Shown: one piece after another, positions 40,412 through 45,681 of the stretch | Layout of the letters: the number at the start of each line of letters is the position of its first letter | How positions within the stretch are numbered: position 1 is the stretch's first letter | Source of the DNA: Calothrix sp. PCC 7103 | Lineage (GTDB): Bacteria > Cyanobacteriota > Cyanobacteriia > Cyanobacteriales > Nostocaceae | Reading direction: 5' to 3' | NCBI RefSeq assembly: GCF_000331305.1 | Contig: NZ_KB217478.1 | Span: 1,208,564-1,272,563, forward strand | Length of the DNA stretch: 64,000 nt | Notes under the pieces: generated by a model | The model's database searches: none | What the model saw: only the letters and a program-made list of their open reading frames with translations | What the model was told of the DNA's origin: nothing | Program-made: the position numbers and the translations under genes

Positions 40412-41063
40412 ATTGTGCTTTAGCTACAATTTTAAAGGCTGGAGGAGTGCCGCTGAAAACGGTATTATAAACTAACCAGCCACTTTTTGTTTTTTGCAAG
40501 TAATTAGTTTGTGGAACATCAGAAGGTGGAGACTTTGCCAGTAATTGATTTGATTCAAGCGAAAATATTTTATGACTCCAAGTTTCTGTTAAATCTACCT
40601 TTGCAGTAGAACCATCGGGGCTAATTTTAAAGTTATGAAAAACTTGTTTCCGTAATTTGGAATAAATATAAGTTTTATGAGATTTTAGCTCCGAAACAAA
40701 TTTTTGCTTTTTCTGTAGCTCCTCTCCTGTGTACGCTTTACTAAGTACATCAGAATTTAAAGACTGATTAACTTCTCTATCAATATCATCAGCATTTTTG
40801 ATAGCATTTTTGAGTTCATCAATATTCTTTTCAGCCTCCGCTCCATCTTCTGGTTTAATAGTAATTAAATATTGTTGTGGTGTTTGAGCAGAAGCTTGAC
40901 TTGATGCAAAAGATGTAGCTAACGTAGCCGTAGTAAGACTAGCAATCTTTTCAGATGTATCTGTATTAACTTTTTTCGATTCAAGGCTTTTACAACTATT
41001 TAGTAGTAAGGCGATGGAGGTTGCGTAAAAACAAGTGTAGATAACATGGCACCTAATCTTCAT
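40410..41063 (-). CDS. Hypothetical lipoprotein
   Basis: A 217-residue protein with a lipoprotein signal ('CFYATSIALLLNSC'), a coiled, charged middle ('GAEAEKNIDELKNAIKNADD'), and a C-terminal domain reading 'FKISPDGSTAKVDLTETWSH' that resembles SnoaL/NTF2-like or ARC6-type IMS-like beta domains. The assignment is weak. Anchored in the membrane. No operon partner. Confidence 0.65.
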   Translation of the reverse strand: MKIRCHVIYTCFYATSIALLLNSCKSLESKKVNTDTSEKIASLTTATLATSFASSQASAQTPQQYLITIKPEDGAEAEKNIDELKNAIKNADDIDREVNQSLNSDVLSKAYTGEELQKKQKFVSELKSHKTYIYSKLRKQVFHNFKISPDGSTAKVDLTETWSHKIFSLESNQLLAKSPPSDVPQTNYLQKTKSGWLVYNTVFSGTPPAFKIVAKAQ

Positions 41064-41328
41064 CGTGATTCCCCCTGATTTAGCTTAACACTACACAATA
41101 AAAACTATTTATATATGCGGAAAATGATTCTTATTTACATCATAGAGTATAAATACTCATACATATGTTAAGTGTTATTAAAGCAAAATCAAATTTTTCA
41201 TAATGATAGTTAATAGAATTAAAGATTTTGGCGCCGAAAACCACTAGAAAGTTAAGACTTCTTAAAATTAAGCCGGGAGTATTGAGATTACCCCCTGATA
41301 AAAGAAATTCTTATGCTATATTGTTTAC

Positions 41329-41400
41329 GGGTGACTAGCTCAATGGTAGAGCATAGGACTCTTAATCCTCAGGTTCTGGGTTCGAGCCCCAGGTCACCCA
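41329..41400 (+). tRNA. tRNA-Lys(CTT)
   Basis: A 72-nt cloverleaf: acceptor GGGTGAC/GTCACCC, D-arm GCTC/GAGC, anticodon arm TAGGA-CTCTTAA-TCCTC (anticodon CTT), T-arm with TTCGAGC, discriminator A. CCA is not encoded. The V-K transposon begins 7 bp downstream. Confidence 0.93.
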
Positions 41401-41402
41401 CC

Positions 41403-41407
41403 TGAAC
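41403..41407. repeat. Target-site duplication, tRNA side (TGAAC)
   Basis: TGAAC directly precedes the TGTCGA terminus. The same five bases follow the other terminus at 45677-45681, as expected for a Tn7-like transposase. Confidence 0.88.
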
Positions 41408-41493
41408 TGTCGAGTAACAAATTATTTGTCGTCGTTAACACATTAATGTCGGCACATCAAATTATTTGTCGCTATTAACAAATTAATGTCGTC
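41408..41493. repeat. tRNA-proximal transposon end with four TnsB-like sites
   Basis: Four repeats at 41414-41433, 41435-41453, 41454-41472 and 41475-41493 each match (T/G)TAACA(A/C)ATTA(T/A)TTGTCG-like text. The pattern resembles the ends of the Scytonema V-K element known as ShCAST. Confidence 0.8.
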
Positions 41494-41650
41494 GAAAGTA
41501 GATGCTTTGTATAACATCTTATATCCTGACTTGCTTGCAAAATATTCCTCTTCGCTAAAAGCTATTTCTATATTTTACTTTTATTAGTGTTTATGTACTA
41601 ATAAATACTTATTAGCCATCATAGGAATTTTTTAAGATTCCTCTACGCTC
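41494..41650. other. Spacer between transposon end and CRISPR region
   Basis: Holds the tRNA-like homing spacer next to the atypical repeat (about 41624-41650) and an inverted TACTAATAAATA...TATTAG stretch. No gene. Confidence 0.5.
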
Positions 41651-41917
41651 CTTTCAACCCTCCGGAGTTACATTGATTTTAAACAACTGTTGAAACAGTT
41701 ATTGTCTTACGGAAAAAAATTGTAGCTTTTCAAGAAATTTCAATCCCCATAGCTGGAATGGTTGTTGAAACATAGAATTTTTAAAATTGTTTTCCAAAAA
41801 ACATAACTTTCAACCTACCCATAACCGAAATAGTTGTTGAAATTTATCTCAATATTTGTAACAAAAGCATTGACATATCGCTTTCAACCCACCCATAACC
41901 TTAATTCAGTAAAGTTT
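41651..41917 (-). CRISPR. Degenerate type V-K CRISPR array
   Basis: Read on the minus strand the repeat is GTTTCAACAACC...GGGTTGAAAG, like known V-K repeats. Units are 41881-41917 (5' half decayed), 41807-41843 (37 bp), about 41736-41771, and an atypical 41651-41696 that keeps only the two ends. Spacers lie at 41844-41880 (37 nt), 41772-41806 (35 nt) and 41697-41735 (about 39 nt). A further spacer-like sequence below 41651 resembles the adjacent tRNA. The array lies between the transposon end and the tracrRNA-like locus, the standard V-K order. Point differences in every repeat indicate decay. Confidence 0.85.
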
Positions 41918-42074
41918 TTCTAATACAAATTTGGTGCCCCCTAAAAAAGTATCTTCATTTTAAATGAAAAACTAAATTAATTGACAGGTCTATAATTAAA
42001 TTAGTTACTGGATAAGAGTTTTAAGATTTTGACGATAATTCAGTGATTTTGCCCGCACTTAGACACGCCAAAAA

Positions 42075-42433
42075 AAATATTTGGAGGGTTCCCCCGACGA
42101 AGGAGGTGATTCGGTAGCCACCACTGAGGTAGTCCCCACCGTTATTCAATGGGAGCAACGGCTTAAGCTTTTCAGCTTTACTCTTTTTGCTGGGAGCGCA
42201 CCTATTCCCCTTTCAGAGTTCTCAACATAAACATTTTTCTTTGTTATCAAAACATAGAGGAATTTTGCTTATCTTAAGATATAAAAGAAGATGTATCCTG
42301 TCCAAACGAGCCAGACAGCAGCTTCAAGAGCGGGTAGCTACCAGGGTCAGAAAGCAAAACGGTTTTCAACCCGTTAAACTAACCCAAACTTATCACTATT
42401 CAGAGGCTTAAAAGTATGAATAGCGGCGCTATT
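42075..42433 (-). ncRNA. tracrRNA-like locus of the V-K system
   Basis: The minus strand contains blocks strongly resembling the ShCAST tracrRNA: 'AATAGCGCCGCTATTCAT', 'GCCTCTGAATAGTG', 'GGTTAGTTTAACGGGTTG', 'GCTTTCTGACCCTGGTAGCT', 'GACAGGAT', 'ATAGGTGCGCTCCCAGC', 'GGTGGCTACCGAATCACC' and 'GGGGGAACCCTCC'. About 90 nt separate GACAGGAT from ATAGGTGCGC, where I recall them being adjacent in ShCAST, so there may be an insertion here. It lies between the array and the cas12k remnant. Confidence 0.85.
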
Positions 42434-42484
42434 ATTTAAATCATATTATTATATTTTCATGGTTCTGTTTTATTTAACAATTTT

Positions 42485-42757
42485 TTACTTATTTAGCATA
42501 GCTTGACGTTCTTTATAGACGCAAATTGCTAAATCTTTTGCCTGCTCTTGAGGACTACCCCTTGTTTGCTGAGATGATGTTTCTATTATAATTCCGGCTT
42601 TAGCTGCTTGAACTTGAATATTCTTAATTAATCTTCCATAGCTCCAACGATGAACACTCATACGGTACTCTTTTGCGTATTTTTGCTGTCCTTCTTTGTA
42701 TCCCGGAATCTTGATTTCTGCTTTCGCTTGAATCTCGCTCTGAATGATTTCTCGCAT
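42485..42757 (-). pseudogene. cas12k: Cas12k C-terminal fragment
   Basis: A 90-residue frame starting MREIIQSEIQAKAEIKI. 'GYKEGQQKYAKEYRMSVHRW', 'SYGRLIKNIQVQAAKAGIII' and 'RGSPQEQAKDLAI' match the end of Cas12k, the RNA-guided target-binding protein of V-K transposons (about 640 residues full length). The remaining ~550 residues are absent; upstream the frame continues only about 25 codons to a stop with little similarity. Cas12k function is therefore lost here unless supplied in trans. Its position, just upstream of the tracrRNA locus on the same strand, is the normal one. Confidence 0.9.
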
Positions 42758-42883
42758 TTTATTTGCAGTTGTTTCTTTCCTTAGATAGAGGCTTGCAGAA
42801 CCTACAACCGTTAATTTGATGAATTAAAACTAGATAATTAATCAGCAAAAATGTCGGATTAATCAACAATCAAGCGGGTTGCT

Positions 42884-43408
42884 ATGGAAGTTAAAGAATT
42901 ACTAAAACAACGTGTTCAGGGTAGAAAGAATTTTCAGGGAATAGATTTATCTGGAAAAGATTTGAGTAGTACATACCTAGTTGGAGTAAATTTCAGGGGA
43001 GCAAAATTGATAGAAACTAATTTTCATGGGGCTAATCTTGCTGCCTCTAACTTAAGTGAGGCAAACTTGAGTAAAGCTGACCTCAGTAATGCAAATCTTG
43101 ATGAAGTTAAATTAACCAAAGCCAATTTAACAGAAGCAAATCTAAGTTCGGCTGTCTTAATTGGAGTAAATTTGAATCAGACGAACCTAAGTGGGGCAAA
43201 TTTAACCAGAGTTAATCTGCACTTGTCTCACTTGGAAGCTGCCAATTTAAGTGAGGCAAATTTACAGTTTGCCAAACTAGGTTGGGTCAATTTAACAGAG
43301 GTCAATTTAATGGGAGCTGACTTGAGAAATGTTGATTTAAATGGAGTAAGCTTAAATGGAGCAAAGCTGGCAGGGGCAATTATGCCTAATGGAGCTATCC
43401 ATAGTTAA
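42884..43408 (+). CDS. Pentapeptide-repeat protein (transposon cargo)
   Basis: A 174-residue protein of about 25 A(N/D)Lxx units from residue ~20 to the end, e.g. 'GANLAASNLSEANLSKADLS'. These fold into a right-handed beta-helix. Such proteins are common in cyanobacteria with mostly unknown roles; some mimic DNA and protect gyrase. As cargo of a mobile element a protective role is conceivable but not shown. No signal peptide. No GGCGCC in the gene. Confidence 0.88.
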   Translation: MEVKELLKQRVQGRKNFQGIDLSGKDLSSTYLVGVNFRGAKLIETNFHGANLAASNLSEANLSKADLSNANLDEVKLTKANLTEANLSSAVLIGVNLNQTNLSGANLTRVNLHLSHLEAANLSEANLQFAKLGWVNLTEVNLMGADLRNVDLNGVSLNGAKLAGAIMPNGAIHS

Positions 43409-43448
43409 ATCTGAATACAGCATATTCTCACAATTACAGTGCAAAAAG

Positions 43449-45380
43449 CTAATCATTATTAAATAATTGGTGTAACGCTTTTAACAAGACCTTAGCCGTG
43501 AAAGGTTTGTCCAAAAAATCTTTTACACCACACTCAATGGCTTTGATTTTTTCCTCATCGTCACTTGAACCACTCATGGCAATAATTTTGACATCTGGCG
43601 TTATTTTCTGTAACACTTTAATGGTTGTTACTCCGTCTAATGTTGGCATCATTAAATCGATTATCACGGCTTTAATTGTATGCTTATTCTGAACGTAGAT
43701 TGGTATAGCTTCAATGCCGTTATTGGCAATTAAAACTTGATAATTATGTATTTCTAAAGTGTTTTTACTAACTTCGGATATAGCTGATTCGTCATCGACA
43801 AATAAAACTAATTCTCCTTGACCATCAACTATACTTGTATCTTCTTCGACAACTGCATCGGATTGTATAGCCGCTGGTAAAAATACTCGAAAAACCGAAC
43901 CTTTATTATTACTGCCAACTTCAAGAAAACCACCGTGACTTCTGACAATATTCAGGACGGTAGGCAAACCTAAACCAGTTCCCTTTCCTGGTTCTTTAGT
44001 GGTAAAAAATGGGTCAAAGATTTTCTCGATAATATTTTCAGCAATCCCAGTCCCTGTATCGCAGAAGGCTACTACAATATATTTACCTTCTTGCGCTTCG
44101 GTATTCATTTTTGCATAGTTAATATCAATGAATTAATTAGAGGCTGTAACGCTTAAAGTACCTCCCGAAGGCATTGCATCGCGGGCGTTTATGGCTAAGT
44201 TCATAAACACTTGATGCAATTGCGTTGCATTAGCGTTTACTGTCCATAAGTTATCAGCAATATCTTTTTTGAATTCAATTGATTTAGGAAACGTACTTAA
44301 ACTGATTTGTTCAATATCTAACAGTAAATGTCTCACTTGAACAATTAAACGCTCTCCATTATCATTATCGCGCGCAAAGCTGAGAATTTGCTTGACTAAA
44401 TCTCTGCCTCTTTTTGTACTAGTTTCCAAAATATTCAGCATCTCCTGATTACGCTGGTTCAGACTTGGAAGCGTTAGAGGTAAAAGTTGAGAAATTGCTA
44501 AGATTGGCGTTAAAATATTATTCAGGTCGTGAGCTATTCCACCTGCTAAAAGACCGATATTGTCCAAGCGTTGAGTCCGTAAAAGCAGCAATTCTAATTG
44601 TTTTGTAGCAGTAATATCTATATCAATACTGAGAATATATTTAGGCTGATTTTTAGCATCTTGTACTAAAGTCCAGTGACTATCCACTATTACATCTTGA
44701 GTGTTTTTCGTCATTTTATGTAACTCACCTTGCCATTTTCCTATAGAAAGTACGTTGTTTAAAGCTGCTTCCGCTTCTGGAGCATGTTCTTTAAACAGTA
44801 ATTCAATAATATTTTTACCTATAGCTTCCTCAGCAGTCCAACCGTAAAGACGTTCTGCACCTTGATTCCAGTAAGTAATTATACCGTCTAACTTTTGTAA
44901 TAAAATCGCATTTGTGGTAACGTCCAACAGTGATGCTTGTTCATAAATTTGTTGCTCTGCTAGTTTGTGTTCTGTTATATCTATTACTATCCCTAGCATA
45001 TGGTTAGGGTGCCTGTATAAATCGGTACCAAAATTGCCGATTGCTTGAATCCAGTGAATACTGCCATCTTGCCATACGACTCGATATTCCTGTTGGAACT
45101 TTTGATGTGATTTTTTAGCACGATGAAGCGCTTTGGTTAAACTTTTTCGGTCTTGAGGATGAACACGGTTGATAAAAGTTTTTAACGTTTTGCCAGTTCC
45201 AATATTTAAATCAAACAATTGCTCGCAGTTGCTTGAGCAATTAATTTCGTTGGTTAAAGTATTCCAATCCCAAGTCCCTATATAATTAGCTTGTAAAACT
45301 AACCGCAATTGTTCTTCGCTCTGTTTTAGAGCTAATTCGCTTGTCTTACGTCGCTGGAAAATGAAGTGTAAAAAACCCAT
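43449..45380 (-). pseudogene. Hybrid sensor histidine kinase interrupted by one stop codon (cargo)
   Basis: Two frames, 45380-44133 and 44108-43449, join in phase: '...GGTLSVTASN', stop TAA (44133-44135), 'FIDINYAKMNTEAQEGKYIV'. Together they form one hybrid kinase: two PAS domains, the phospho-acceptor box 'GGIAHDLNNILTPILAISQL', N box 'MNLAINARDAMPSGG', then after the stop 'FCDTGTGIAENI', 'GKGTGLGLPTV' and a receiver domain ('LVLFVDDESAISEVSK', 'VIIDLMMPTLDGV', 'FLDKPF'). The stop falls between the N and G1 boxes, so each half lacks a working ATP site. Either an inactivated gene or, less likely, a readthrough or sequencing artefact. Confidence 0.85.
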
Positions 45381-45439
45381 TTTATATCTTACATAACGTT
45401 ACAATAAACAACTGCTAATTGTTTGAAAATCATCTCACG

Positions 45440-45577
45440 CTATCCCATTTCCATGAGCTTTACCATCAAATCAATGAACTTTTCCCAAGAATTAGACAGT
45501 TTACAGGTGCTTCTGGGAGGTAAGACCTGTAAAAAGTAAAGGGCATATAAAGTTAAATTTCTAAACGCATCTATTAA
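45440..45577 (-). other. Short unassigned open frame near far transposon end
   Basis: About 45 codons reading 'LTLYALYFLQVLPPRSTCKL' and ending 'SWEKFIDLMVKLMEMG' before a TAG. It may be the tail of a lost gene. No family assigned and no ATG start. Confidence 0.2.
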
Positions 45578-45631
45578 CAATCAAAAAGGCTATAATGCTT
45601 ATATGGTAAGTATTACAGCCCTTAATATGTG

Positions 45632-45676
45632 GACGACATTATTTTGTTAAGACGACAAATAATTTGTTAATCGACA
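45632..45676. repeat. Far transposon end with two TnsB-like sites
   Basis: On the minus strand TTAACAAATTATTTGTCGTC then TTAACAAAATAATGTCGTCC directly inside the TGTCGA terminus. Mirrors the tRNA-proximal end. Confidence 0.8.
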
Positions 45677-45681
45677 TGAAC
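45677..45681. repeat. Target-site duplication, far side (TGAAC)
   Basis: Second copy of the 5-bp duplication flanking the element. Confidence 0.88.

Follow-up and report, generated by a model that had tools for sequence, protein, structure and literature searches.

The 64,000-nucleotide stretch of the Calothrix sp. PCC 7103 genome analyzed here (contig NZ_KB217478.1, positions 1,208,564 to 1,272,563; hereafter the window) harbors a bounded element of 4269 bp (4.3 kb; window 41408-45676), which we interpret, with a probability of roughly 0.83, as the internal-deletion relic of a type V-K transposon associated with clustered regularly interspaced short palindromic repeats (CRISPR-associated transposon, CAST). 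The relic is well preserved and belongs to a known kind; nothing shows that its movement continues, and the element is most likely immobile today. This reading is based on its two ends and target-site duplication (TSD), the 59-nt distance between the left end and its target motif, the V-K gene layout, an empty site in a genus mate, a full-length relative on contig C12 of the same genome (hereafter the resident element), several marks of decay, the single copy seen, and the share of cas12k-carrying genomes without tnsB in the family.

The element is delimited by terminal inverted repeats of 26 nt (41408-41433 and 45651-45676) matching at 25/26 positions (96% complementary). Inside them lies a second inverted pair of 19 nt, and the ends are made of repeats near TTAACAAATTAATGTCG. 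By convention, the CRISPR side is taken as the left end (LE) and the opposite side as the right end (RE). The pentamer TGAAC stands directly outside both ends, so that the matching termini and the perfect 5-bp duplication described in the initial annotation were both recovered. When the whole 64-kb window was scanned for TGT...ACA pairs that carry a 5-bp TSD and agree at 16/25 or more end bases, this pair was the sole match (24/25); in the control, 8 of 20 mononucleotide shuffles yielded any pair, the best reaching 17/25. Judged by their sequence, these appear to be TnsB-type ends as in V-K CASTs. A chance inverted repeat is ruled out by the shuffles together with the empty site.

The position of the insertion points in the same direction. 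LE begins exactly 59 nt past a GTA protospacer-adjacent motif (PAM) inside a tRNA-Lys gene (Table 1), in agreement with the V-K insertion rule of a GTN PAM located 46-82 nt from LE, as given in the available text of PMC9938897. According to passages of PMC11406308, the tRNA attachment sites of V-K elements are served by truncated, separate CRISPR RNAs (crRNAs). A truncated repeat (R*) with an anchor guide indeed sits at the position expected for a V-K CAST. Compared by eye with the tRNA-Lys protospacer, the only target compared, the guide GAGCGTAGAGGAATCTTAA differs by two substitutions and a 2-nt insertion.

From left to right, tRNA-Lys, LE, the truncated repeat with its guide, CRISPR repeats, a trans-activating CRISPR RNA (tracrRNA) locus, the cas12k C-terminus, cargo and RE follow one another, and everything from the guide through the cas12k remnant lies on the minus strand. 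This layout agrees with the V-K arrangement in the part of Ziemann et al. (PMC9938897) available to us. The array consists of two near-full repeats of 37 and 35 nt, unlike each other, and one partial repeat in addition to R*. The V-K-type array of the initial annotation is thus present as repeats, but it is degenerate and unlike the six 37-nt repeats of the resident element. The tracrRNA locus is of the V-K kind, its DNA between 42041 and 42459 being 86% identical to that of the resident element. It keeps 73/75 consensus pairs (ten relatives range from 70 to 75), which serves as a consistency check only because the consensus alignment includes the element's own sequence. Of the Cas12k effector, residues 563-654 alone are left, with an ATG-started frame of 90 aa, and the element is for this reason a relic and not a functional V-K member. 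An origin of this frame from another family was ruled out, as it shares 83% identity with the Cas12k of the resident element, a protein that passes NF038191. The tracrRNA-like locus and the last ~90 residues of Cas12k had both been correctly recognized from the outset.

The transposition genes are missing. No TnsB match lies within the element in a search of this genome in which all 26 candidates were scored, and its four longest open reading frames (ORFs; frames of 74 and 64 aa left out) gave no Pfam match to TniB, TniQ or Mu-transpos_C, so that neither tnsB nor a recognizable tnsC or tniQ is present in cis. The initial proposal of a decayed V-K CAST without transposition genes is supported by these absences as well as by the full relative and the empty site.

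The empty site was found in a genus mate (G064), where the two flanks are contiguous and 93% and 94% identical to those of the window. The expectation that tRNA-Lys would be followed there by a single TGAAC was borne out as to contiguity and a single pentamer, but this reads TTAAC instead of the TGAAC that occurs twice in the window. The tRNA-Lys locus (window 41329-41402; L031, L032, L033) resembles a hot spot, with other DNA present in three genus mates. In two of them, ~9.5 kb (G060) and ~2 kb (G061) of other DNA separate tRNA-Lys from the right flank; in G065, the right flank was not found within 20 kb of tRNA-Lys. A 3' piece of the tRNA recurs ~9 kb (G060) and ~19 kb (G065) away, which suggests putative integrase-type elements. 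In G063 the tRNA is present, and neither the right flank nor V-K ends occur in the 5 kb taken. The tRNA-Lys site was not located in G062; this genome carries another reduced relative on plasmid1 (G062:C2), with an 86%-identical cas12k fragment (residues 454-654) and a tnsB piece containing a stop ~18 kb from it.

Searching the 12 contigs of the genome (11.58 Mb) at the DNA level revealed the full V-K CAST with similar ends that the initial annotation had suggested looking for. This resident element spans 22,458 bp (C12:700371-722828) on a 1.56-Mb contig; its ends are 25/25 identical, and its TSD, read in the small element's orientation, is ACAAC. Its genes include those for TnsC (with a TniB domain), TniQ and Cas12k, the last an intact frame of 654 aa. 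Its tnsB frame tracks the relatives to about residue 453-456 and then enters sequence that recurs in the genome: of 22 matches in the TnsB search, 20 fall on this recurring stretch, and the remaining two are the gene itself and a protein of 35% identity. Since the frame runs into this repeated stretch, the gene is most likely broken by a putative insertion sequence. Besides this interrupted copy, no V-K-type tnsB was found among the 26 candidates scored. Homology between the two elements runs through LE (76%) and the block from the CRISPR repeats over the tracrRNA to the cas12k end (86%) up to residue 563 (window 42757) and resumes at 45572 with RE (81%); the two are ~91% similar over 43-44 bp at their ends. 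The middle of the 4.3-kb element, between these homologous parts, is cargo.

The resident array has six 37-nt repeats, five of them identical, and a degenerate seventh, with spacers of 34-37 nt. At 16 of its first 17 nucleotides, the sixth spacer (GAGAAGTAATTCCGGGT...) matches the sequence next to a GTA PAM; this PAM lies exactly 59 nt away from the left end of the resident element, and the match is lost past position 17. Each insertion is 59 nt from a GTA PAM; both therefore obey the same rule. From the matching sequences, an anchor guide appears to have brought one element to a tRNA gene, and an array spacer the other into a gene on the 1.56-Mb contig. The resident stretch homologous to the anchor guide reads ..AGCATAGGACTCTTAA, with no repeat recognizable by eye before it. 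Between array and left end, at the place expected for the repeat handle of the anchor guide, a short stretch (C12:722500-722545) looks by eye like another transposon end, with one half-site match. By NCBIfam matches, the cargo of the resident element includes genes resembling a CRISPR-Cas set of type I-MYXAN, among them a Cas4-Cas1 fusion and Cas2 (L009:13550-18344, L010:1412-5859), which means that adaptation genes travel inside a CAST.

The anatomy of the locus can be accounted for as follows. Cas12k would have led a full V-K element carrying the anchor guide GAGCATAGGACTCTTAA to the protospacer and its GTA PAM in tRNA-Lys, and TnsB would have joined it 59 nt downstream of the PAM, duplicating 5 bp. 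Comparison with the resident element shows that a deletion took out tnsB, tnsC and tniQ together with cas12k as far as residue ~562, so that the cargo now abuts the LE/CRISPR/tracrRNA block on one side and ~105 bp of RE on the other; the order and timing of these steps are our reconstruction. In the absence of selection, mutations have built up in the anchor guide, the repeats and the cargo kinase, the tracrRNA and ends being so far intact. The decay marks are the mutated guide, the unequal repeats and an in-frame stop in the cargo kinase. Several points weigh against this scenario. The tracrRNA and both ends are better kept than the remaining parts, as would fit either a young element or one still used in trans. 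A full element at this tRNA-Lys was not found in any relative, and deletion after insertion is for this reason not directly demonstrated. Our version of the ancestral guide is a reconstruction from the protospacer and the partial anchor sequence of the resident element. Finally, a shell with both ends and TSD may be unusual, as none was seen in seven other tnsB-less loci scanned.

One alternative is that the element had already been reduced to 4.3 kb by the deletion when the transposition proteins and Cas12k of a full element, such as that on C12, inserted it in trans at tRNA-Lys. The intact ends and TSD, the well-kept tracrRNA and the presence of a related full element with similar ends in the same genome would fit such a non-autonomous form. 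However, just one copy is seen, the resident tnsB is interrupted by a multi-copy sequence, so that no V-K transposase is evident now, and the resident anchor sequence, which has no recognizable repeat handle, could hardly home to tRNA-Lys today. As the repeats and guide of the small element are degenerate as well, we consider this order of events improbable. The initial annotation had gone further in suggesting that the element might still be mobilizable in trans as a CAST counterpart of miniature inverted-repeat transposable elements (MITEs); the intact ends are what speaks for it, and against the single copy, the decaying parts and the broken state of the only V-K tnsB found we consider such mobility improbable. 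Continued use could also be sought in the guide RNA, if the conserved tracrRNA and residual repeats served the resident Cas12k. The retained pairing and the intact effector would allow this, but a tracrRNA and six full-length repeats are already present in the resident element itself, and the repeats of the small element are degenerate, which makes such a supply very unlikely. The remaining alternatives, a chance inverted repeat in ordinary genomic DNA or a transposon of another family, are refuted by the shuffles, the empty site and the V-K homology of cas12k and tracrRNA, and can practically be dismissed.

Evidence for more than one copy, or any other proof of movement as a small element, was not obtained: the own genome holds one full copy of the 4.3-kb form (40 of 200 candidate stretches scored), and the whole left part (query 40700-42760), searched in 217 genomes of the family with the two best candidates each scored, had no match among those listed for the 216 others. 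With up to five candidates scored per genome at E <= 1e-15, Cas12k was matched in 130 of the same 217 genomes; for TnsB, with up to seven candidates at E <= 1e-40, the number was 120. Among the 130, 20 had no TnsB match in the candidates scored, a rough figure in view of unequal thresholds, limited candidates and fragmented assemblies; from these protein matches, transposase-less V-K loci seem not to be rare. Seven other such loci (G076, G215, G092, G117, G130, G143, G040) showed no case of both ends with a TSD, several of their contigs ending inside the stretch. Applied to eight comparison regions, the scan demanding a TSD found a pair in C12, G132 and G105, none in G138, G116, G122 and G064, and a weak one (16/25) in G062; since most regions gave none or a weak pair, it misses much. 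Scanned without this demand, V-K-like pairs appeared in the window, C12, G132, G105 and G061:C13, all with TSD, and in G138 without (5/6 with TSD), and none in G116, G122, G064 and G062. The G138 pair (G138:C337:642-22184) is 21.5 kb apart and matches at 22/25, with GCGGC and ACAAT in place of a TSD.

As for the cargo, the kinase lacks ~132 N-terminal residues present in a relative at C12:697138-699438 (DNA identity 73%). This relative, the nearest seen, lies ~0.9 kb outside the right end of the resident element, possibly by chance or through cargo exchange.

Table 1 Coordinates of the 4.3-kb element, its attachment site and the short elements with similar ends. Positions without a prefix refer to the window.
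Feature	Position	Strand	Evidence
tRNA-Lys(CTT), attachment gene	41329..41402	+	ARAGORN
GTA PAM (41346-41348) and 17-nt anchor protospacer GAGCATAGGACTCTTAA (41349-41365)	41346..41365	+	Sequence inspection
Left TSD copy TGAAC	41403..41407	.	End scan; empty site in L013
LE: terminal inverted repeat and TnsB-site-like repeats	41408..41493	+	Sequence repeats
R* (truncated repeat, 41651-41665) and decayed anchor guide GAGCGTAGAGGAATCTTAA (41632-41650)	41632..41665	-	Sequence comparison
Degenerate CRISPR array: repeats 41737-41771, 41807-41843, partial 41881-41905	41737..41905	-	Repeat comparison
tracrRNA locus, conserved (limits approximate)	42040..42460	-	DNA similarity across family; consensus structure
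cas12k C-terminal fragment	42485..42757	-	Matches residues 563-654 of resident Cas12k, 83% identical
Cargo: pentapeptide-repeat protein, 174 aa	42884..43408	+	PF00805
Cargo: PAS/HisKA/HATPase/receiver hybrid histidine kinase, split by one in-frame stop (44133-44135)	43449..45380	-	ORFs, Pfam
RE: TnsB-site-like repeats and terminal inverted repeat	45634..45676	-	RE homology to resident element 81% over 45572-45676
Right TSD copy TGAAC	45677..45681	.	End scan
V-K-like double-end MITEs (~200-250 bp)	L046:1910-2143, L047:6075-6323, L048:2776-3009		
V-K-like double-end MITEs (~200-250 bp)	L049:2431-2650, L052:7563-7783, L050, L051, L058		
g37 MITE copies	L059-L061, L197, L200-L203		

A search of the genus with the right end uncovered gene-less elements of 201-249 bp with two such ends in two genus mates (G061, G064), and MITEs of ~70-76% similarity occur in other genera, mainly genus g37, a lower bound as three candidates per genome were scored. 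Their occurrence in two genus mates and other genera shows that small derivatives with V-K-like ends are real. They resemble the 4.3-kb element in their ends, yet differ from it and have no TSD: none of 15 distinct copies (seven from G061/G064, one from G022, seven from g37) has a 5-bp duplication, as opposed to 5/6 of the larger V-K end pairs. In this count, G145 and G113 represent the same site and two G022 rows the same copy, and partial copies and a diverged G196 copy were left out. Comparing flanks across copies, a single shared pair (ACAGT), within one genome, was seen, which we judge to be near chance.

Two copies were compared with related sites. At G143:C74, the right flank has relatives of 92-95% identity whose other side mismatches the left flank of the MITE, which places this copy at a junction. 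The left flank has matches elsewhere of 75-85%, including a second copy in G143 itself (83%), and because of this copy it may be a paralogue, leaving a rearrangement unproven. Homology ends 116 bp before and ~70 bp after the MITE. At G145:C37, where G145:C64, G146 and others have an uninterrupted site, the MITE and ~180 bp of unrelated sequence replace ~46 bp, an arrangement that a nested insertion plus deletion would also explain.

One broader idea is that non-autonomous families moved in trans by TnsB arise from the V-K-type ends of these cyanobacteria, comprising both occasional multi-kb deletion forms like the present one and the ~200-250-bp MITEs. We regard this as rather unlikely, the more so as the apparent breakpoint at one copy may rest on a paralogous flank. 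The missing TSDs could, as a guess, reflect replicative transposition without TnsA within one replicon; the pattern would follow if the copied element were too short for homologous recombination to resolve cointegrates. Alternatively, the partner of the MITEs could be a Tn5469-like element instead of a V-K transposase. Passages of PMC11406308 call the fate of V-K cointegrates in native hosts unknown. Were V-K ends to yield TnsB-moved families, this would bear on that fate, and if TSD-less MITEs are tied to V-K transposases, cointegrate handling in native cyanobacteria would become testable by genome comparison. Irrespective of the MITEs, the two insertions in one genome, at a tRNA gene and in a gene on another contig, provide a natural record of the two V-K guide-RNA pathways, and the 4.3-kb shell reveals what has gone from the element and offers a small natural donor for trans-mobilization tests.

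With MITEs in general, the 4.3-kb element shares the kept ends and the absent transposase, but it is 4.3 kb long, is seen in one copy, carries cargo genes and shows no evidence of amplification; no literature on V-K MITEs or miniature V-K elements was found, judged by titles and abstract openings. Degenerate V-K elements are noted by Ziemann et al., whose available text counts twelve Cas12k proteins as degenerated and mentions 'a degenerated version' of cas12k at regulator loci (PMC9938897); a short form with both ends, a TSD and a shown empty site is not described in that part of the paper. Compared with type V-K CASTs such as ShCAST, AcCAST and AnCAST (Tn7-like), the element has no tnsB and no recognizable tnsC or tniQ, keeps ~90 residues of Cas12k and a degenerate array, and measures 4.3 kb instead of the 22.5 kb of its resident relative. 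It nevertheless shares with them TGT ends and the 5-bp TSD and, as far as they are portrayed in the available passages of PMC9938897 and PMC11406308, the tRNA attachment site, the order LE, R*, anchor guide, CRISPR array, tracrRNA and cas12k, and a GTN PAM 46-82 nt from LE.

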